NCBI GenBank assembly: GCA_022846075.1
Contig: AP025582.1
Span: 1,984,001 to 2,048,000 of the forward strand
Reading direction: 5' to 3'
Source: Oscillospiraceae bacterium
GTDB lineage: Bacteria; Bacillota; Clostridia; Oscillospirales; Oscillospiraceae
DNA length: 64,000 bases
The notes under the pieces were generated by a model. The model ran no database searches, was not told where the DNA came from, and saw only the letters and a program-made list of their open reading frames with translations. Below, piece by piece: positions 1 through 52,800 of the stretch (position 1 is the stretch's first letter; every line of letters starts with the position of its first letter). Position numbers and translations under genes: made by a program.

Positions 1-1481
1 CGGGGCCGGGGGCCACCAACCTGACCACCGGCATCGCCACCGCCTACATGGACTCCTCCCCTGTGGTGTTCCTCACCTGCAACGTCAGCGAGAACCTCAT
101 CGGCAAGGACTCCTTCCAAGAGGTGGACATCACCGGCATCACCATGCCCATCACCAAGTGTAACTACCTGGTCCACAGCCCCGAGGAACTGGCCGACATC
201 ATCCGGGAGGCCTTCGCCATCGCCCGTTCCGGCCGGCCGGGCCCCGTGCTCATCGACATCCCCAAGAACATTACCGCCGCCTCGGCGGACTACGAGTACC
301 TCCCCGTGGAACAGCACGCCTCCCACGGCCGGCTGGCCGCCATGCTCCGCCGCTCCAGCCACGATCTCAAGACCCCGGAGCCCGACGCCGGGGATATCGA
401 CCACCTGCTGGACCTGATCGCCAAGGCCAAACGGCCCCTCATCCTGGTGGGCGGCGGCGTGATCCGCTCCAAGGGGGCGGTGCCCGAGTTCCGCAAGTTC
501 GTGGAAACCCTGAACGCCCCCGTGGCCTCCACCATCATGGGCGGCGGCGCCCTCCCCGGCAGCCATCCCCTCTTTACCGGGATGATCGGGATGCACGGCT
601 CCCACGCCTCCAATCTGGCCTCCGCCGAGTGCGACCTTCTCATCGCCATCGGCTGCCGGTTCTCCGACCGGGTGGCCACCGACACCGACGATTTCGCCAA
701 GCAGGCTCAAATCGTCCAAATCGACATTGACCGCTCCGAGATTGACAAGAACGTGAAGACCGACCACCACATCATCGGGGACGCCCGGCAGGTCTTACAT
801 ATGCTCAACGCCAAGCTCCCCGACCACGACTATCCCCAATGGAAGGAGTGGGTCTTCTCCCACCAGGAGGTGCCCCTCAAGAAGGACGACATCCTCCACC
901 CCCACGAGGTGCTGGAGACCATCCAGGCCGCCACCAACGGGGAGGCCATCATCGCCACCGACGTGGGCCAGCACCAGATGTGGTCGGCCCAGTATTACCA
1001 CTTCTCCCGCCCCGGCCAGTTCGTCACCTCCGGCGGCTTCGGCACCATGGGCTTCGGCATGGGGGCCGCCATGGGGGCCAAGCTGGGCAACCCCGACAAG
1101 CCGGTGGTGCTGTGTACCGGCGACGGCTCCTTCCGCATGAACTGCAACGAGCTGGCCACCCTGTCCCACTACCGCATCCCGGTCATCATCGCCCTCTTTG
1201 ATAACCACACTCTGGGCATGGTCCGCCAGTGGCAGAACCTCATTTACCAAAAGCGCTTCTCCCAGACCGATTTGGAGTACGCCCCCGACTTTGTGAAGCT
1301 GGCCCAGGCTTATGGCGTCCCCGGGGAGCGGGCGGCCGACCAGCCCCAGCTGGAGGCGGCCATGGAGCGGGCCCTGGCCTCGGGCGGGCCCTACTTCATC
1401 CAATGCGACATCGACAAGGACGCCATGGTCCACCCCATGGTCTCCGCGGGCACCCCCGTCACCGACTTTTTGCTGGATTGA
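1..1481 (+). CDS. ilvB: Acetolactate synthase large subunit, 5'-truncated
   Basis: ThDP-dependent enzyme that condenses two pyruvates (or pyruvate plus 2-oxobutyrate), the first common step of valine, leucine and isoleucine synthesis. The reading frame is open from base 3 and begins inside the family motif GPGATNLTTGIATAY, so roughly the first 70-80 residues lie before the window. The central FAD/transhydrogenase-like domain is present, as is the C-terminal ThDP domain with GDGSFRMNCNEL followed by FDNHTLGMVRQWQ. Stop at 1479-1481; the small subunit starts 13 bases later behind an AGGAGGGG site, so the two are co-transcribed. Confidence 0.96.
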   Translation, partial: GPGATNLTTGIATAYMDSSPVVFLTCNVSENLIGKDSFQEVDITGITMPITKCNYLVHSPEELADIIREAFAIARSGRPGPVLIDIPKNITAASADYEYLPVEQHASHGRLAAMLRRSSHDLKTPEPDAGDIDHLLDLIAKAKRPLILVGGGVIRSKGAVPEFRKFVETLNAPVASTIMGGGALPGSHPLFTGMIGMHGSHASNLASAECDLLIAIGCRFSDRVATDTDDFAKQAQIVQIDIDRSEIDKNVKTDHHIIGDARQVLHMLNAKLPDHDYPQWKEWVFSHQEVPLKKDDILHPHEVLETIQAATNGEAIIATDVGQHQMWSAQYYHFSRPGQFVTSGGFGTMGFGMGAAMGAKLGNPDKPVVLCTGDGSFRMNCNELATLSHYRIPVIIALFDNHTLGMVRQWQNLIYQKRFSQTDLEYAPDFVKLAQAYGVPGERAADQPQLEAAMERALASGGPYFIQCDIDKDAMVHPMVSAGTPVTDFLLD

Positions 1482-1494
1482 GGAGGGGAAGGAA

Positions 1495-2049
1495 ATGAAA
1501 AACGAACATACCCGCCACACCCTGTCCGTGCTGGTGGAGAACGCCCCCGGCGTTCTCTCCCAGGTCTCCCGCCTCTTCTCCCGGAAGGGCTACAACATTG
1601 AGTCCCTGGCCGTGGGCACCACCGATGACCCCAAGATCTCCCGCATTACCATCGAGGTCATCAGCGACGAGGCCATGACGGAGCAGATCATGAACCAGCT
1701 GCGCAAGCAGTTCCCCGTCTACTCGGTCCAGGAATTACTGCCCGAGCGGTCCATCCGTCGGGAGCTGGTGATGTTTAAGGTGAAAGCCGAGACCGCCGAC
1801 ACCCGCAACGAGGTCATCCAGATCGCCAACATCTTCCGGGCCTCCATCATCGACGTCTCCATCAAGTCCCTCACCCTGGCCCTCATCGGCGACGAGACCA
1901 AGGCCGAGGCCATGCAGAAGCTGCTGGAGACCTTCGGCATCCTGGAGCTGGTGCGCACCGGCATGGTGGCCCTGGAGCGGGGCGCCTACACCATCAGCGA
2001 CGAGAATAAGGAGAAGGCGGAGTTCAGCCTGGGCAAAAACCTGCTGTGA
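1495..2049 (+). CDS. ilvN: Acetolactate synthase small (regulatory) subunit
   Basis: A 184-residue regulatory subunit that binds the IlvB catalytic subunit and normally confers valine feedback inhibition. The N-terminal ACT domain is clear (HTLSVLVENAPGVLSQVSRLF, then NIESLAVGTT), and a second ACT-like half follows (RRELVMFKVKAE onward). The ATG at 1495 was chosen because AGGAGGGG lies 7-8 bases upstream and the ACT domain starts right after it. Length fits the IlvH/IlvN family (about 160-185). It could equally be named ilvH. Confidence 0.95.
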   Translation: MKNEHTRHTLSVLVENAPGVLSQVSRLFSRKGYNIESLAVGTTDDPKISRITIEVISDEAMTEQIMNQLRKQFPVYSVQELLPERSIRRELVMFKVKAETADTRNEVIQIANIFRASIIDVSIKSLTLALIGDETKAEAMQKLLETFGILELVRTGMVALERGAYTISDENKEKAEFSLGKNLL

Positions 2050-2144
2050 CCCCGCCCCCCCTATTTGTATCACATGTTACATTCTTTTCCCACCACCTGT
2101 GCGATACTGGAAGTAACCACCTATATTAAAAGGAGTGTTTTATC

Positions 2145-3164
2145 ATGGCAAAGATGTACTACGAGAAGGACTGCGACCTGAGCTACCTGAACGGCAAGAA
2201 AATCGCCATCATCGGCTACGGCTCCCAGGGCCACGCCCACGCCCTCAACCTGAAGGACTCCGGCTGCGACGTTTGCGTGGGTCTGCGCCAGGGCTCCAAA
2301 AACTGGGCCGAGGCTGAGAGCCACGGGCTCAAGGTCATGACCGTGGCCGACGCCGCCAAGTGGGGCGACATCGTGATGATGCTCATCAACGACGAGGTCC
2401 AGGCCGACGTCTACAAGAAGGACATCGCCCCCAATCTGGTGGAGGGCAACGCCCTGGCCTTTGCCCATGGTTTCAACATCCGCTACCAGCAGATCGTCCC
2501 TCCCGCGGGCGTGGACGTCTTCATGGCCGCCCCCAAGGGCCCCGGCCACACCGTCCGCTCCACTTACGTCGCCGGCAAGGGCGTGCCCTGCCTGGTGGCC
2601 GTGGAGCAGAACGCCACCGGCAACGCCTACAAGATCGCCCTGGCCTACATCGCCGGCATCGGCGGCGCCCGGGCCGGCGTGATGGAGACCACCTTCCACG
2701 ATGAGACCGAGACCGACCTCTTCGGCGAGCAGACCGTCCTGTGCGGCGGCGTGGTGGATCTGATGCAGTGCGGCTTCGAGACCCTGGTGGAGGCCGGTTA
2801 TGAGCCTGAGAACGCCTACTTCGAGTGCATCCACGAGATGAAGCTCATCATTGACCTCATCAACAAGGGCGGCGTGGGCATGATGAACTTCTCCATCTCC
2901 GACACCGCTGAGTACGGCGAGTATGTCTCCGGCCCCCGGGTCCTCCCCCACGAGGAGATCAAGAAGAACATGCGGGCCGTCCTCTCCGACATCCAGGACG
3001 GCACCTTTGCCGGCAAGTGGATCGCCGAGAACAAGAACGGCCGCACCTTCTTCAACTCCATGCGGGCCAATCTGGCCAAGCACCAGATGGAGGTCGTGGG
3101 CGGCGAGCTGCGGAAGAACATGATCTGGGGCGACGATCAGGATATGGACACCGCCTCCAAATAA
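2145..3164 (+). CDS. ilvC: Ketol-acid reductoisomerase (class I)
   Basis: NADP(H)-dependent isomeroreductase that converts acetolactate or acetohydroxybutyrate to dihydroxy acids, the second BCAA step. At 339 residues it is the short class I form. The Rossmann dinucleotide motif GYGSQGHA is at residues 24-31, and the knotted C-terminal domain carries [14 protein letters not shown] and [13 protein letters not shown] with the Mg-binding acidic residues. An AAAGGAG site precedes the ATG. It lies 95 bases after ilvN in the same direction, so it may be in the operon or have its own promoter; I see no convincing one. Confidence 0.97.
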
Positions 3165-3182
3165 GGCTGTTTTCCTTGACAG

Positions 3183-3231
3183 AAAAAGGTGCGAACGGTA
3201 CAATCAGGGTACCTTTCGCGCCTTTTTATTT
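3183..3231 (+). terminator. Rho-independent terminator after ilvC
   Basis: A 13-base arm AAAAAGGTGCGAA pairs with TTCGCGCCTTTTT (one G-U pair), with an inner GGTAC/GTACC helix, ending in a T-run. It closes the ilvB-N-C transcript. Confidence 0.85.
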
Positions 3232-3253
3232 TCTGTGTTCAGGAGGAATTCTC

Positions 3254-4942
3254 ATGAAAAAGCGTATCCTGCCGGCGCTGCTGGCCCTCATCCTGGCGCT
3301 GGGGGCGTTGTCCCCGGCCCTCGCCAAGGGAATGGTTCCGGACGGAGCCTATTGGAAGGAGCTGACCTGGGACGAGGGGGCCGCGCTCGTGGAGCAGCTG
3401 AAAACCGACTCGAACGCGTCGGCCATCCTTTTTCTCTACTCCCACAACTGCACATACTCCCAGACCTGGATCCCCCAGTTCAGGGAATACGCCGAAGCCC
3501 ACCAGATTCCCCTGTTCGGCCTGGACGACACCCTGTACTCCGGGGAGACTTCCGAACACAACAGCATTGAATTCGGGACCACCATCTCCGGGGGATACCC
3601 CGTCGCCCTGCTCTATCACGGCGACGGCCGGGAGGCCGTCAGCAGCGTCCGCTCCATGGAGGCCTTCGAGGCGGTCCTCAACAGGACGGCTCAAACCAGC
3701 GGGGACTTTGTGCTCAACCAGGAAAACCGGCTGCTGCGGTATCTGGGGGTTGGGGGCGACGTGGTGATCCCCGACGGGGTCCTTTCCATCGATCCCTCCG
3801 CCTTTGAGGGCTGCGATACCGTGCGCAGCCTGGTGGTGCCCGAGGGCGTGACCGAGCTGGAGGACCGGGTGTTTCGAGGCTGCGGCAATCTGGAGGAGAT
3901 CACCCTGCCCAGCACCGTCACCAAACTGGGGGCCGGCGTCTTCTCCGCCAACCAAACCCTGCGGCGGGTGAACATGGGCGCCTCCGGGATCACGGAACTG
4001 CCGCCCCGATGCCTGAGCAACAACTACGCTCTGAAGGAGCTGATCCTCCCCCACGGCCTGGTGAGCATCGGAGACTGGGCCATCAACAATACGGCCCTGC
4101 CCGAGCTGGTCATCCCGGCCAGCGTCACCACGCTGGGCAAGAACGCGCTGGGTCAGAATTTCAAGCTTCAAACCCTGCGTTTTCTCGGCCACAAGCCCCA
4201 AATGGCCACGGGAGAGGACGACAGCCTCGCCCGCTCCAGGGGCGCGGCCATCTATCCGGCGGACGACCCCACCTGGGGGAGCGTGGAGACCCTGCTGGCG
4301 GAGCATCCCTCTCTGAACTGGGGCGGGCTGCCGGGGCAGATCACCCCCCTCCCTGCCCGGAGCGAGCTTGACGACGGCACCCTGGCCGATTGGGCGGCGG
4401 ACGAGGTGGCCCTGGCCGCCTCCTACGAGCTGACCGCGCCGGCCGACCGGCAGAGCTACAGCCAGCCCATCACCAGAGTGAACTTCTCCCAGCTGATGAT
4501 GCGGGTGGTGGAAAAGGTCACCATGCAGACCGTCCGGGAGATCTGGAACAGCGACAAGGGGGACGTGCCCCCCTTCTCCGACGTCAGCAACATCTACACC
4601 TTCGCCGCCGCGAAGCTGGGCCTGGTGAGCGGCCGGGGCGACGGATGCTTCGACCCGGAGGGGGCCATCACCCGCCAGGAGGCGGCGGTGATGCTGGCCC
4701 GGACGGCCCAATACCTGGGTGCGGCCGGCGCAGGCGCCCAACAAGACTTTGCCGACCGCGGGGACGTTGCCTCCTGGGCGCTGGAGAGCGTCGATCTGGT
4801 CTCCGGACTTACCACCCCGGAGGGGCGGGCGGTCATGGGAAGCACCGGCTCCGGCTTCTCCCCCTTGGCCACATACAGCAATCAGGAGGCCCAGTGCTCG
4901 TTTCTGCGCCTCTATCAGGCGGTCACCGTCCTCGACTCCTAA
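3254..4942 (+). CDS. Secreted thioredoxin-like / BspA leucine-rich repeat / SLH-like protein
   Basis: A 562-residue exported protein. The ATG at 3254 follows AGGAGG by 7 bases and opens a signal peptide (MKKR, hydrophobic stretch, cleavage near ALA-KG at residue 24). Residues about 30-145 look thioredoxin-like (LFLYSHNCTYSQTW), but the active site is C66-T-Y-S69, lacking the second cysteine. Residues about 168-315 contain BspA-type leucine-rich repeats (VVIPDGVLSIDPSAFEGC, then repeated IPxSVTxLGxxAF-like units). Residues about 436-558 contain two S-layer-homology-like segments (PFSDVSNIYTFAAAKLGLVSG; ITRQEAAVMLAR). This suggests a cell-wall-anchored surface protein; its substrate is unknown. 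Confidence 0.8.
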   Translation: MKKRILPALLALILALGALSPALAKGMVPDGAYWKELTWDEGAALVEQLKTDSNASAILFLYSHNCTYSQTWIPQFREYAEAHQIPLFGLDDTLYSGETSEHNSIEFGTTISGGYPVALLYHGDGREAVSSVRSMEAFEAVLNRTAQTSGDFVLNQENRLLRYLGVGGDVVIPDGVLSIDPSAFEGCDTVRSLVVPEGVTELEDRVFRGCGNLEEITLPSTVTKLGAGVFSANQTLRRVNMGASGITELPPRCLSNNYALKELILPHGLVSIGDWAINNTALPELVIPASVTTLGKNALGQNFKLQTLRFLGHKPQMATGEDDSLARSRGAAIYPADDPTWGSVETLLAEHPSLNWGGLPGQITPLPARSELDDGTLADWAADEVALAASYELTAPADRQSYSQPITRVNFSQLMMRVVEKVTMQTVREIWNSDKGDVPPFSDVSNIYTFAAAKLGLVSGRGDGCFDPEGAITRQEAAVMLARTAQYLGAAGAGAQQDFADRGDVASWALESVDLVSGLTTPEGRAVMGSTGSGFSPLATYSNQEAQCSFLRLYQAVTVLDS

Positions 4943-34048: not shown

Positions 34049-34666
34049 ATGCCTAACGCAAAGGTTCTGAGCGAGAAGCAGGCCATCGTGGCCGAGCTGG
34101 TCGAAACCCTGAAGTCTTCTGCCAGCGGCGTGCTGGTGAATTACGAGGGTATCACCGTGTCCGAGGACACCACCCTTCGTAATGAGCTGCGCAAGGCCGG
34201 CGTGGAGTACTCCGTGGTGAAGAACACCCTGGTGCGCCGCGCTCTGGACGACGCCGGGCTCTCCGAGCTGGACGGCGTGCTCCACGGCACCACTTCCCTG
34301 GCTGTCAGCAAGGAGGACCCCATCGCCCCCATGCGTGTCATCCACAAGTTTGCCAAGGGGCTCAACGGCGACCGGTTCGTCATCAAGGCCGGCTTCATGG
34401 AGGGCAAGGTCCTTCCCATGGACGACATTGCCGCTCTGGCCGAGCTGCCCTCTAAGGAGGCGCTGGTGGGTCAGGTGCTCGGCATGATGCTCTCCCCCAT
34501 CACCAGCCTGGCCATCGTCATCAAGGCCATCGCCGAGAAGGGTGGCGTCCCCGCCGACAAGCCCGCCGAGGAGGCCGCTGCCCCCGCTGAGGAGGCTCCC
34601 GCCGCCGAGGCCGCTCCCGCCGAGGAGGCCCCTGTCGAGGCTGCCGCCGAGACCCCCGCTGAGTAA
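34049..34666 (+). CDS. rplJ: 50S ribosomal protein L10
   Basis: L10 of the ribosomal stalk base: LSEKQAIVAELVETLKSSAS, VLVNYEGITVSEDTTLRNELRKAGVEYSVVKNTLVRRAL. 205 residues, longer than the usual ~165-175 because of a C-terminal Ala/Glu/Pro-rich acidic tail from about residue 170 (PADKPAEEAAAPAEEAPAAE). Tail function is unknown; such extensions occur in some Clostridia. Confidence 0.96.
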   Translation: MPNAKVLSEKQAIVAELVETLKSSASGVLVNYEGITVSEDTTLRNELRKAGVEYSVVKNTLVRRALDDAGLSELDGVLHGTTSLAVSKEDPIAPMRVIHKFAKGLNGDRFVIKAGFMEGKVLPMDDIAALAELPSKEALVGQVLGMMLSPITSLAIVIKAIAEKGGVPADKPAEEAAAPAEEAPAAEAAPAEEAPVEAAAETPAE

Positions 34667-34709
34667 TCAAAAACAAAACGTTTAAACCAAATTTAGGAGG
34701 TATACTATT

Positions 34710-35084
34710 ATGGCTAGCGAGAAGATCACTGCTCTGATCGAAGAAGTGAAGTCCCTGACCGTCCTGGAGCTCAACGACCTGGTGAAGGCTCTGGAGGAGG
34801 AGTTCGGCGTTTCCGCCGCCGCCATGGCCGCTCCCGCCGCCGGTGGCGCCGCCGCCCCCGCCGCCGAGGAGAAGACCGAGTTCGACGTCGTCCTGGCTGA
34901 AATCGGCGCCGAGAAGATCAAGGTCATCAAGGTCGTCCGCGAGATCACCGGCCTGGGCCTGGCCGAGGCTAAGGCCGCTGTCGAGGCCGCTCCCAAGGCC
35001 ATCAAGGAGGCCGTCTCCAAGGACGAGGCCGAGGAGCTCAAGAAGAAGCTGGAAGAGGTCGGCGCCAAGGTCGAGCTGAAGTAA
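34710..35084 (+). CDS. rplL: 50S ribosomal protein L7/L12
   Basis: A 124-residue stalk protein: N-terminal dimerisation helices ([30 protein letters not shown]), an Ala-rich hinge, and the C-terminal factor-binding domain ([35 protein letters not shown]). TAGGAGG precedes the ATG. The operon ends here at a terminator; rpoB is not next. Confidence 0.98.
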
Positions 35085-37929: not shown

Positions 37930-39288
37930 TCACAGGCCCAAAAGCCGCTGGGCCAGCGTGAAGTAGACCACCAGGGACACGGCGTCCACGATGGTGGTGA
38001 TCAGGGGGGCGGCCATGATGGTGGGGTCCACGTGGAGGCGCTTGGCCAGGATGGGGAGCATGGAGCCGATGGTCTTGGCCATCACCACCGTCACCAGCAT
38101 GGCCCCGGCCACAGTGAAAGAGACCATCGTGTTGCCCGGATACTGGATCTGAAGGCGGACAAAGTTCACCGCGCTCAGGATCACCCCCACCAGGATACTG
38201 ACCCGCAGCTCCTTCCAGAGGACCCGCAGGAAGTCCCCCATCTCGATCTCCCCCACCGCCATGCCGCGGATGATCATGGTGGAGCTCTGGCTGCCGGCGT
38301 TTCCGCCGGTGTCGGTGAGCATGGGGATAAAGGTGACGAGAAGGGGCACGGCGGCGAAGGCCGCCTCGTACTTGCCCAAAATGCCGCCGGTGACCATGCT
38401 GGAGACCATCAGCACCAGCAGCCACACGATCCGGTTTTTGGCCAGGGAAAAGACGCTGGTCTTGAGGTAGGGCTTCTCCGAGGGGGCCATGGCGGCCATC
38501 TTCTCGAAGTCCTCGGTGGCCTCCTCCTCCATGACGTCCATGACGTCGTCTACGGTGACGATGCCCACCAGCCGGTGCTCCTGGTCCACCACGGGCAGGG
38601 AGATGAAGTCGTACTTCATCATCCGGTTGACGGCCTCCTCCTGGTCCTCGGTGGTGAGGGCAGTGATGAGGTCGGTCTCCATCAGCTCCTCCACGACAGT
38701 GTCGTCGTCGGCCACCAGCAGCTCCCGGAGGGTCACCACCCCCTCCAGGACGCGGCGGGAGTCGATGACGTAGCAGGTGTAGATGCTCTCGCTCTCGTCG
38801 CCGCTGCGGCGGATGCGGGTGATGGCCTCGCTGACCGTCATGGACTTGCGCAGGTCGATGAACTCGGCGGTCATGATGCTGCCCACCGAGCTGTCGGGGT
38901 AGTTCAAAAACTGATTGATGAGCTTGCGGGTATCGGGCCGGGCGGTCTTAAGCACCCGCTTGACCACGCTGGCGGGCAGCTCCTCCAGCATGTCCACCGC
39001 GTCGTCCACGTTCAGATCCTCCACCAGCTCGGAGACCTCCCGGTCTGTGGCGGAGGAGATGATGAGCTGCTGGTCCTCCGGCTCCAGGTTGGCGAACACG
39101 TCGGAGGCCATCTCCTTGGGCAGCATGCGGAAGACCAGCACCGTTTTATCCGGCGGCAGTTCCGCCATGAATTCGGCCACGTCCACCTCGTTGGCGTCGG
39201 CCAGCTGGGTTTTTAAGGTCCGGTAGTCCCGCTCGGTCAGCATGGTCTCCCACACCAGGAGCAGGTCCCTGCGCTCCATTTCTTCCAT
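37930..39288 (-). CDS. mgtE: Magnesium transporter MgtE
   Basis: A 452-residue Mg2+ channel. N domain (ADANEVDVAEFMAELPPDKTVLVFRMLPKEMASDVFANLE), two CBS domains (about residues 135-255; VGSIMTAEFIDLRKSMTVSEAI, FISLPVVDQEHRLVGIVTVDDVMDVMEEEATEDF), then five membrane helices with the pore signature PLLVTFIPMLTDTGGNAGSQSSTMIIRGMA. AGGAGG is 7-8 bases from ATG 39288. A long structured leader with an upstream ORF precedes it. In the family, Mg2+ binding to N/CBS domains closes the channel. Confidence 0.96.
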   Translation of the reverse strand: MEEMERRDLLLVWETMLTERDYRTLKTQLADANEVDVAEFMAELPPDKTVLVFRMLPKEMASDVFANLEPEDQQLIISSATDREVSELVEDLNVDDAVDMLEELPASVVKRVLKTARPDTRKLINQFLNYPDSSVGSIMTAEFIDLRKSMTVSEAITRIRRSGDESESIYTCYVIDSRRVLEGVVTLRELLVADDDTVVEELMETDLITALTTEDQEEAVNRMMKYDFISLPVVDQEHRLVGIVTVDDVMDVMEEEATEDFEKMAAMAPSEKPYLKTSVFSLAKNRIVWLLVLMVSSMVTGGILGKYEAAFAAVPLLVTFIPMLTDTGGNAGSQSSTMIIRGMAVGEIEMGDFLRVLWKELRVSILVGVILSAVNFVRLQIQYPGNTMVSFTVAGAMLVTVVMAKTIGSMLPILAKRLHVDPTIMAAPLITTIVDAVSLVVYFTLAQRLLGL

Positions 39289-39320
39289 ACTTCTTTCCTC
39301 CTGTCTTTTGATACAGCGAG

Positions 39321-39483
39321 GAAGTACGTAAGGACAGCAAACCGCGCTGGTAAAGCAGTTGCTTTACCAGCGCGGCGACATTCCGATCATGGGCACGGGA
39401 AATCTAGCCCCGCGCCTGCCTCAGGAGGAACGGGGGGCGATTTACCGCCCATAAGGGAACATCGCTGTCCTGTCTGGTACTTC
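39321..39483 (-). promoter_or_regulatory. Structured mgtE leader, candidate Mg2+-responsive element
   Basis: On the minus strand a closing helix forms between GAAGTAC/AGGACAGC (39483-39477, 39471-39464) and GCTGTCCT/GTACTTC (39338-39331, 39327-39321): 7+8 bp around an internal loop. Inside are ATGGGC/GCCCAT (39452-39447 with 39394-39389), a GGCG-GTAAAT-CGCC hairpin, a CCCCG/CGGGG helix and a perfect 34-base palindrome (39375-39342; arm CCGCGCTGGTAAAGCA). The M-box consensus elements I know are absent. The mgtE ribosome binding site begins about 20 bases downstream. Confidence 0.6.
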
Positions 39484-39499
39484 GGCCGCAGATGTCCAC
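39404..39499 (-). CDS. Upstream leader ORF of mgtE (31 residues)
   Basis: GTG at 39499 lies 7 bases after AAAGGAGGA, one of the best ribosome binding sites in the area, and opens a 31-codon frame ending at TAG 39404-39406. The peptide starts VDICGRSTRQDSD and contains W17 and the stretch N20-R-P-P-F-L-L. It covers the 5' strand of the leader closing helix and part of its interior, so ribosome movement would remodel the RNA. In Salmonella, proline-containing leader peptides (MgtL) control an Mg2+ transporter; here this is analogy only. No homologue known to me. Confidence 0.5.
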   Translation of the reverse strand: MDICGRSTRQDSDVPLWAVNRPPFLLRQARG

Positions 39500-39569
39500 T
39501 GACTGTTCCTCCTTTAATCTCTATTTTAGACGGATCTTCCGCCTCTTTTTCAAGAATACCACGTCAGGC

Positions 39570-40949
39570 TCATTTTTTCAAGTCTTTTTGTCCCTCTTCC
39601 ATGGCCCGCATCTTCCTCAGGAAGCTCACCGACAGGGGGACGGTGAGCACCGTCGCCAGCAGGTCGGCGATGGGCTGGGCCAGCATGACCCCCGTAAAAT
39701 CAAAGAGAGGGGGCAGGATCAGGATCAGGGGGATGAAGAATAGACCCTGCCGGGCCAGGGCCAGCACCGACGCCCGAAAGTTCTCCCCCACGGTCTGGAG
39801 CATCATATTGTTTAAGATCACGTAGCTCATCACCAGAAGGGTGACCAGCTGGCAGCGCATGGCGGCGGTGCCCAGCTCCACCACCAGAGGGGCGTTGGGC
39901 TGGAAGAAATGGACGATCTGAGGGGCAAACCAGATCCCCAGCGCCGCGATCACCGTCAAAACCGCGGTGCCCACCTTCACACAAAACCAGTAAGCCTGGC
40001 GCACCCGGCCATAGAGCCCGGCGCCGTAGTTGAAGCCGCACACCGGCTGGAAGCCCTGGCCGAAGCCGATGAGGGCGGAGCCGGAAAACATGCCGAAGCG
40101 GTTGACGATACCCATGGCGGCAATGGCCGCGTCCCCAAAGGGACCGGCCGCCCGGTTGAGGAGAATGGAGGCCACGCTGGCCAAGCCCTGCCGGTAGAAG
40201 GAGGGCAGGCCGCCCCGGATGATATTGCCCAGGATGCCGCCCTTGAGGGTGAACCGCTTCCAGCGGATGGGGAGGGTCCCGCCGCGGCCGGTGTTGAACA
40301 GGAGGATGCAGAAGCTCACCAGCTGGCTGAGGATAGTGGCCAGGGCCGCCCCGCCGATGCCCATATTCAGGCCGAAGATAAAGATGGGGTCCAGGATCAT
40401 GTTGAGGATGCCGCCGGTGGTAATGCCCATCATGGCGTAGGTGGCGCTCCCCTCAAAACGCAGCAGGTTGTTGAGCACCAGGGAACCCACCATGTAGGGG
40501 GCGCCCAGGAGGATGTACCGGGCGTAGTCACGGGCATAGGGCAGGATGGTGGGCGTGGCCCCCAGGGCGCTGACCAGGGGGTCCAGAAACAAAAGCCCCA
40601 GCACCGCCACGGCAAGGCCCCCGAAGATGCCGGAGAAAAAGCCTGTGGCGGCCACCCGCTCGGCCTCCTCCTGGTTCTTTTGGCCCAGCAGCCGGGAGAC
40701 ATAGTTGCCCGAGCCGTTCCCAAAGGTAAAGCCAAGGGCCTGGATAATGGCCATGAGGGAGAACACCACCCCCACCGCCCCCTGGGCGCTCTCTCCCAGG
40801 CCGCCCACGAAATAGGTATCCGCCATGTTGTAGATGGAAGTGATGAGCATGGAGATGATGGTGGGCACCGCCAGCTGTCCCACCAATCCGGGGATGGGCG
40901 CTGTGGTGATCCACTGGAATTTTTCGTCCGGGTTGGTGAATTTCCGCAT
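39570..40949 (-). CDS. MATE family efflux transporter 2
   Basis: A 459-residue, 12-helix exporter: VGQLAVPTIISMLITSIYNMADTYFVGGLG, ALGFTFGNGSGNYVSRLLGQKNQEEAERVA, AAIAAMGIVNRFGMFSGSALIGFGQGFQPVCGFNYGAG and PQIVHFFQPNAPLVVELGTAAMRC. This is the MepA/NorM-like clostridial branch and clearly different from MATE gene 1. GAGGAAG precedes the ATG. mgtE lies 281 bases downstream with its own leader. Substrate unknown. Confidence 0.93.
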   Translation of the reverse strand: MRKFTNPDEKFQWITTAPIPGLVGQLAVPTIISMLITSIYNMADTYFVGGLGESAQGAVGVVFSLMAIIQALGFTFGNGSGNYVSRLLGQKNQEEAERVAATGFFSGIFGGLAVAVLGLLFLDPLVSALGATPTILPYARDYARYILLGAPYMVGSLVLNNLLRFEGSATYAMMGITTGGILNMILDPIFIFGLNMGIGGAALATILSQLVSFCILLFNTGRGGTLPIRWKRFTLKGGILGNIIRGGLPSFYRQGLASVASILLNRAAGPFGDAAIAAMGIVNRFGMFSGSALIGFGQGFQPVCGFNYGAGLYGRVRQAYWFCVKVGTAVLTVIAALGIWFAPQIVHFFQPNAPLVVELGTAAMRCQLVTLLVMSYVILNNMMLQTVGENFRASVLALARQGLFFIPLILILPPLFDFTGVMLAQPIADLLATVLTVPLSVSFLRKMRAMEEGQKDLKK

Positions 40950-52552: not shown

Positions 52553-52578
52553 AGTAAGCGGAACAACTGAATGAAAAA

Positions 52579-52712
52579 TGTCTTCAGGGCAGGGTGAAAA
52601 TCCCGATCGGCGGTAAAGTCCGCGACTGGCCTAACGGCCACTGACCCGGTGAAACTCCGGGACCGACAGTGACGCGTCTCTATGGGGTGCGAAGTCTGGA
52701 TGAAAGAAGATG
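52579..52712 (+). ncRNA. FMN riboswitch (RFN element)
   Basis: The conserved RFN blocks are in order: TCTTCAGGGCAGGGTGAAAATCC, GGCGGTAAAG, CGCGACTGGC, GACCCGGTGAAACTCCGGGACCGACAGTGA, GTCTGGATGAAAGAAGA. The ends (TCTTC and GAAGA) form the closing helix. Downstream, CTCCTTTTTGT (52730-52740) can pair with ACAAAAAAAGGAG (52779-52791), masking the ribU ribosome binding site, and CACCTGAAAG/CTTTCAGGTG forms a further hairpin without a good T-run. This suggests translational control. Confidence 0.97.
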
Positions 52713-52800
52713 TGTGAAGCAAATGCACGCTCCTTTTTGTTTTACACCTGAAAGACATGGGCCTTTCAGGTGTTACCGACAAAAAAAGGAGTGTTTTATT

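Follow-up and report, generated by a model that had tools for sequence, protein, structure and literature searches.

A candidate translation-coupled leader of mgtE in Oscillospiraceae and related short uORFs before Mg2+ transporter genes

Introduction

Leader-peptide control of Mg2+ uptake is known already, and the excerpted sources report leader peptides that sense Mg2+ through the ribosome in E. coli and Salmonella. In E. coli, according to the excerpt of PMC11282234, MgtL is translated at sufficient Mg2+, whereas at low Mg2+ ribosomes drop off on its EPDP residues and mgtA is expressed. The excerpt of PMC3641672 describes tandem attenuators of Salmonella mgtCBR, whose leader ORFs are expected, through their translation, to govern stem-loops ahead of a Mg2+ transporter operon; the likeness to the leader studied here lies in that expectation, while the genes are others, the control is transcriptional and there are two ORFs. 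Nearest in the literature are two further systems. The M. tuberculosis pe20 M-box leader with uORF1 and uORF2 (PMC12810186, in excerpt) shares a conserved uORF, an alternation of SD, anti-SD and anti-anti-SD strands, and Mg2+-related genes, but differs in having an M-box, a mycobacteria-specific peptide and Rho dependence. The mgtE motif (PMC11109978, Nucleic Acids Res. 2024) is likewise a candidate structured RNA located before mgtE, with the SD as part of it; compared by the part of its description available, it differs in being confined to Thioalkalivibrio and a riboswitch candidate, with no uORF stated. Within the open-licence literature, subscription papers being outside this scope, no description of such an mgtE leader peptide or uORF was found.

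Here we analyze the leader of mgtE in a stretch of 64,000 nucleotides from an Oscillospiraceae genome, the whole of which is called the window. Our main reading, to which we give a probability of about 0.55, is that this leader is a translation-coupled, MgtL-like Mg2+ control element of mgtE and a lineage-specific form of a leader-peptide family found ahead of Mg2+ transporter genes throughout the phylum as sampled. What appears new here is the architecture, the range and the target gene.

Like MgtL before mgtA of E. coli and Salmonella, the leader contains a short, SD-preceded uORF ahead of a Mg2+ transporter gene, and this uORF overlaps alternative RNA structures (here P0, P1 and P2). Many relatives show an acidic and Pro-containing N-terminus (MDSDPLP, MDADPG and VDPDLC beside EPDP), and some of them stand before MgtA-type ATPases. 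The longer MgtL sequence is MEPDPTPLP. Unlike MgtL, the output here looks translational, by a predicted masking of the mgtE SD, the SD of the uORF itself can be buried by P0, the target is mostly mgtE, and the window peptide has no EPDP. The likeness, read from sequence, is one in the kind of leader.

Layout of the leader

The MATE-family gene (40949-39570) and mgtE (39288-37930) are both encoded on the minus strand and are separated by a 281-base gap. Read directly in this gap, as the earlier note had reported, are an SD, AAAGGAGGA, and a uORF of 31 codons with a GTG start (39499-39404, minus strand). The features of the leader are as follows.

37930-39288, minus: mgtE, 452 amino acids, MgtE, MgtE_N and CBS domains (Pfam PF01769, PF03448 and PF00571)
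39507-39515, minus: Shine-Dalgarno of the uORF, AAAGGAGGA, from the sequence; GG-x-GG is invariant in 27 aligned leaders, these bases being fixed by the search motif
39404-39499, minus: uORF, VDICGRSTRQDSDVPLWAVNRPPFLLRQARG, GTG start at 39499, 31 amino acids (31 codons), TAG ending at 39404, read directly
39505-39513, minus: 5' strand of P0, the SD of the uORF (partner-swap test, 0/5000)
39423-39431, minus: 3' strand of P0, GTTCCTCCT, within uORF codons 23-26 (partner-swap test, 0/5000)
39477-39483, minus: 5' strand of P1b, GAAGTAC, uORF codons 6-8 (P1 partner-swap test, 0/5000)
39464-39470, minus: 5' strand of P1a, GGACAGC (MFE structure and P1 swap test)
39448-39465, minus: 5' strand of P2, uORF codons 12-17, approximate ends (swap test, 0/5000)
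39376-39393, minus: 3' strand of P2, approximate ends (swap test, 0/5000)
39342-39375, minus: P3 hairpin, 16-base arms and 2-base centre (RNAalifold; swap test, 0/5000)
39332-39338, minus: 3' strand of P1a, GCTGTCC (MFE structure and P1 swap test)
39321-39327, minus: 3' strand of P1b, GTACTTC, its CTTC doubling as the first bases of the anti-SD strand (P1 swap test; CTTCCT invariant in 27 leaders)
39287-39328, minus: sequestor hairpin, TACTTCCTCGCTGT with ACAGGAGGAAAGAAGTA (MFE structure; strands nearly invariant)
39297-39302, minus: SD of mgtE, AGGAGG, from the sequence

The 220-nt leader has an MFE of -109.9 kcal/mol compared with -71.7 for shuffled sequences (z = -7.9), and none of 200 shuffles was equally stable. 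The closing helix that had been proposed for it can be read in the sequence as P1, in which GAAGTAC (39483-39477) pairs with GTACTTC (39327-39321) and GGACAGC (39470-39464) with GCTGTCC (39338-39332). Two features go beyond the earlier note: the helix P0, able to bury the uORF's own SD, and the anti-SD strand, CTTCCTCGCTGT, for which both the uORF-side helix and the SD of mgtE are possible pairing partners. P1 and the anti-SD strand have bases in common, and the anti-SD strand is able to mask the mgtE SD. A scan for intrinsic terminators at 39250-39650 found none. A promoter-like TTGAAA-17-TATTCT is located at 39581-39553, starting inside the end of the MATE gene.

Pairing in window-type leaders

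We aligned 27 leaders, leaving out L011, which is cut, and L054, L060, L063 and L072. On this alignment RNAalifold showed changes on both sides in 10 of the 11 pairs of P3 and did not report P1 or P2, perhaps because of alignment gaps and their crossing with P0. For this reason we used a partner-swap test, in which the duplex energy of each leader's own strands is compared with that of strands exchanged among leaders, with 18 representatives of less than 80% identity and 5000 permutations. Own and swapped energies were -19.6 and -16.0 for P0, -18.8 and -16.2 for P1, -19.0 and -13.4 for P2, and -26.9 and -14.9 for P3, and in each case 0 of 5000 permutations were as good; five deliberately wrong pairings, used as control, gave 661 to 4374 of 5000. 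The sequestor, the anti-SD hairpin on the mgtE SD, gave 3794/5000, its strands being nearly invariant and therefore without covariation signal.

The partner-swap test thus backs both the closing helix P1 and the inner helices P2 and P3. The element described as a perfect 34-base palindrome (39375-39342) is a paired one, stem P3, which covaries in relatives; perfect it is not, with 16-base arms around a non-palindromic AC centre. A protein site at this palindrome was considered and rejected, as it corresponds to the variable and covarying P3.

P0 pairs the SD of the uORF with codons 23-26 and crosses P1 and P2, which overlap codons 6-17; because of this crossing, P0 is probably an alternative fold to P1/P2.

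The covariation of P1, P2 and P3, a Mg2+ transporter as target, and the overlap of P1 with the anti-SD strand, as in riboswitch platforms, would also suit a direct riboswitch in which the P1-P2-P3 junction binds Mg2+ or another metal and the uORF is incidental. Such direct sensing by the RNA, to which the earlier note had given room, appears quite unlikely, since L054, L060, L063 and L072 keep the uORF and show an MFE structure without the three-way junction (z of -1.6 to -2.3, far weaker than the window). In L060 and L072 P1 is kept beneath an unbranched stem, and L054 and L063 have a stem resembling P0 at the SD of the uORF. Furthermore, both the sequence and the length of P2 and P3 differ greatly among window-type leaders, the 27-leader alignment has few invariant bases apart from those of the uORF start and of the SD and anti-SD strands, and the uORF family occurs with quite different RNAs.

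Distribution and reading frame of window-type leaders

Counting the window's own genome, 10 of 16 genomes of the genus carry the leader according to DNA search. The uORF-start motif was found with up to 3 mismatches in 17 of 400 family genomes, a count that includes the window's own and one hit judged false, and with 2 mismatches in 4 of 297 genomes of the order sample; on these counts the window-type form is patchy in family and order. The false hit (L033, 3 mismatches) is the start of a long ORF, and all true matches in the family genomes have 0 or 1 mismatch. The exact degenerate motif of the uORF start matched 35 stretches in the GTDB genome collection, among them sequences from Pseudoflavonifractor, Flavonifractor, Anaerotruncus massiliensis, Anaeromassilibacillus senegalensis and an Anaerofustis MAG. 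mgtE lies downstream in 32 of these matches, and the other three sequences end 52, 260 and 386 bases past the motif start. Flavonifractor sp. An100 shows two leader-mgtE loci (L048 and L070), each with its own uORF variant.

The frame of the uORF spans 19-41 codons and reaches at least 25 codons in 30 of 31 leaders (25-41 in those 30), compared with 24 of 31 for the +1 frame (span 2-80) and seven of 31 for the +2 frame (span 1-62). The GTDB search motif fixes codons 2, 5 and 6 (Asp, Gly and CGA), codon 7 as AGY and most of codon 4. Therefore, constancy of codons 2 and 4-7 is no evidence, and third-position-only changes at codons 2 and 5 are no coding evidence, being forced by the motif. Among 23 non-redundant leaders, codon 3, which the motif leaves free, encodes Ile, Leu or Val in 19. 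In these relatives the start and N-terminus recur and the peptide drifts past about eight residues. The window peptide has acidic residues D2, D11 and D13 and a Pro at P15 (D11-S-D13-V-P15), with no acid at position 4, no Pro before 15 and no EPDP. The Pro-Pro motif, mentioned earlier for the uORF, is conserved in only four of 31 uORFs and was rejected as a functional motif; conserved instead are Asp2 and, in relatives, early Asp/Pro. The case for translation of the uORF, as judged from sequence comparison, comes mainly from a wider family and not from the window type.

A wider family of uORFs before mgtE

A survey based on mgtE, with no leader motif, covered 110 family, 127 class and 109 phylum genomes, of which 83, 74 and 49, respectively, showed mgtE at the cut-offs used, and 89, 78 and 29 upstream regions (196 in total) were examined. 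The filter was blind to the peptide and accepted uORFs with an SD of at least 5 of 6, 12-50 codons, and a position 80-400 bases ahead of the first aligned mgtE codon. The survey omits three partial mgtE matches at the family level (G147 and the second ones of G135 and G148), second copies of tandem mgtE (G766, G705, G678, G690 and G691) and the partial match G786 at the class level, and all rows without loci at the phylum level. L254 and L238 are one gene counted twice, with such a uORF in neither.

The 196 regions contain 121 SD-preceded uORFs, 80 of them with Asp or Glu at residue 2 (D/E2); these 80 are found in 79 regions, and 117 regions show no D/E2 uORF under the filter. The first 167 regions contain 67 D/E2 uORFs compared with a mean of 3.85 in 20 dinucleotide shuffles (maximum 7), and 53 that also have a P/G motif, framed after seeing the data, compared with 0.25 per shuffle set; on the reverse strands of these regions three of 27 uORFs are D/E2. 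As further controls, D/E2 was found in 14 of the 145 short ORFs of the window, the uORF itself among them, and in one (Glu2) of the five uORFs found in 29 MATE upstream regions. Among the 80 D/E2 uORFs, D/E occurs at residue 4 in 25 and Pro at residue 5 in 21; a second D, E or P within residues 3-8 is present in 50 of the 80 as against 29 of the 41 other uORFs. Peptide forms include MDAGSSNGTxxGRS, MDxxPLP, MDAxPGR, MDADPG, VDGDSG and VDPDLC, as well as MDSDPLP and MDAGSSNGTSAGRS, and the Asp/Pro and Gly/Ser/Arg forms recur in-frame across the phylum.

Pairing of the ribosome binding site was also found in this wider family. In 22 uORFs chosen for P[LGS][PRSN], two of them near-copies, the Pro codon is CCT in 13, CCC in seven and CCG in two, and a strand further downstream pairs with the RBS and start codon (own -18.2, swapped -13.0, 0/5000). 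P0-like pairing in the 104 testable uORFs of the family gave own and swapped values of -17.0 and -13.2 (0/5000), the own partner ranking in the top 5% in only 33 of the 104, and the control with an upstream stretch gave 468/5000. The peptide changes freely across the family while this pairing persists. Taken on sequence, both the uORF family and its pairing appear well supported.

These data bear on two other explanations of the uORF. Recurrence of its start and N-terminus could mean that it encodes a working small protein, for instance a regulator of MgtE, with the RNA pairing secondary. This we hold to be most improbable, given the drift past about eight residues, the free change across the family while the RBS pairing is kept, and the lack of any NCBIfam (four peptides scanned) or Pfam (three peptides) family. 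It is very unlikely, too, that the SD-GTG stretch is untranslated and serves only as an anti-anti-SD strand, the role reported for SD1 in the pe20 M-box leader of mycobacteria. Such pairing is feasible given P0 and the anti-SD strand, an SD1/aSD/SD2 logic is described in the excerpt of PMC12810186, and nearly all codons of the window-type uORF belong either to a helix or to the search motif, which makes a coding constraint inseparable there; but the presence of Asp/Glu2 in 80 of 121 uORFs across the phylum, the in-frame recurrence of Asp/Pro and Gly/Ser/Arg forms, and a length of 25-41 codons in 30 of 31 window-type uORFs speak against it. We consider it highly probable that the uORF is translated and regulatory.

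The distant mgtE paralogues L167, L169 and L170 (26-29% identity) also show Asp2 uORFs, e.g., MDSCGSTGRSRVC and VDGESTGRRRPHG. In some class-level leaders, such as L177, L181, L185 and L188, the uORF spans the leader and its stop lies on or beside the SD or start of mgtE, a layout that suggests translational coupling or occlusion, unlike the scheme of the window.

Relation to the M-box

Rfam showed no family at threshold in the window leader, an FMN riboswitch being the sole match of the window. For the leader at E up to 10, all matches fell far short of threshold, the best being a microRNA model on the plain hairpin P3 (25.5 bits against a threshold of 90), and no M-box was found in 39000-39800. 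M-box elements had been reported as not visible here, with which the absence of an RF00380 match in the leader agrees, and M-box searches found none in 16 members of the genus. An M-box or other known riboswitch as the control element of the window leader was rejected on these results, and the uORF leader is the sole control element seen there.

In relatives the M-box (RF00380, ykoK) also stands before mgtE, and of 80 family genomes with mgtE, 18 have one; the filters applied when M-boxes were sought over 40 genomes were stricter. A further Rfam scan of 40 relative loci, chosen by hand and partly for M-box-like sequence, found 16 with an M-box, and also a single T-box, on the opposite strand, and a single tRNA. 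In 11 of these 16 M-box loci a D/E2 uORF (SD score of at least 4) begins 52-150 bases past the M-box, so that in such leaders it can add a second layer of control behind the M-box. The loci with M-box and uORF in series before mgtE are L114, L147, L161, L163, L164, L166, L170, L204, L205, L216 and L222; a hairpin with a T-run between both elements was seen by eye in all 11.

Target genes beyond mgtE

A whole-genome search with the MDAGSS-form motif gave one match in each of 13 genomes out of 150. Twelve are before mgtE, nine of them already in the survey, and the thirteenth is before a Mg2+-translocating P-type ATPase (NCBIfam PRK15122, 537 bits, and TIGR01524, 513 bits), a gene cut by the end of the locus and below the full-length cut-offs. 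Eight more matches to MgtA-type ATPases were obtained from six of 99 genomes, seven of them with upstream DNA (L292 to L298), and an M-D/E frame is found ahead of six of these seven genes. Two passed the strict SD filter (MESDGS and MDGNPR) and two more reach an SD score of only 4 (MDSDSSPRR and MDTGSSTS); MDSDSGPRR (L294) and MEAGGG (L296) were read by eye, neither frame meeting a stop ahead of the ATPase start within the stretch inspected, and L298 shows no M-D/E frame. G008, of the window's genus, has both mgtE and MgtA-type targets.

Mg2+ is named as the signal mainly because two unrelated Mg2+ transporters carry such leaders; resting on this gene association, it is likely to be the signal. 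A leader peptide that senses another cue (an amino acid, a polyamine, an antibiotic or the general translation rate) and tunes Mg2+ uptake to the state of the ribosome would be compatible with a link to Mg2+ by gene association only, and in the 11 loci with an M-box already upstream a second Mg2+ sensor might be redundant. Still, we judge another cue unlikely: the peptide shows no run of a single amino acid, uORFs of this kind stand before two Mg2+ transporters that are unrelated to each other, the early Asp/Pro resembles MgtL, and two leader ORFs are described in the Salmonella mgtCBR leader according to the excerpt of PMC3641672.

Proposed mechanism

For the MgtL-like control of mgtE we infer the following ON/OFF logic. 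With enough Mg2+, the uORF would be translated and ribosomes would keep P0, P1 and P2 open; with P1/P2 open, the anti-SD strand would be free and the mgtE SD closed (OFF). At low Mg2+, ribosomes would drop off early on the acidic and Pro-containing N-terminal chain (D2 and D11-S-D13-V-P15 in the window), as in E. coli MgtL, so that P1/P2 could form, the sequestor would be weakened and mgtE translated (ON). Early drop-off as the sensor is a tentative element of this scheme.

In base-pair calculations over 18 leaders without a ribosome, the mgtE SD was paired with a mean of 0.85 (0.99 in the window) and P1b formed at 0.28 on average (0.06 in the window). With a ribosome modelled on codons 9-19, mean P1b was 0 and the sequestor 0.96. 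In many cases where P1b forms, the sequestor partly persists. Folding without a clean switch may reflect either tertiary or kinetic effects missed by the calculation or a different logic.

The proposal of a translation-coupled leader of an undescribed type is supported by the absence of Rfam matches, the helix covariation and the uORF family before Mg2+ transporter genes. Related tiny peptides before such genes in many related bacteria point to a widespread, undescribed ribosome-based control of Mg2+ uptake. It is conceivable, although we would not call it probable, that they make up a phylum-wide Mg2+-sensing leader-peptide family, a counterpart of enterobacterial MgtL, which uses the ribosome's need for Mg2+ as sensor, governs both MgtE and MgtA-type ATPases, hides its own start site to form a self-sustaining translation switch, and acts alone or behind an M-box. 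If so, N-terminal chains of this kind ahead of mgtE and mgtA in Clostridia of the gut would show a widespread principle, many natural variants would be at hand to learn which nascent chains destabilise ribosomes, and it would be explained how Mg2+ uptake may be set without an M-box.

Elsewhere in the window, the region 34049-35084 (+) carries by translation what we take to be an rplJ-rplL pair, and Rfam showed no L10 leader at threshold in the window. The FMN riboswitch of the window is located at 52576-52715 (+), with 98.6 bits against a threshold of 66.2.
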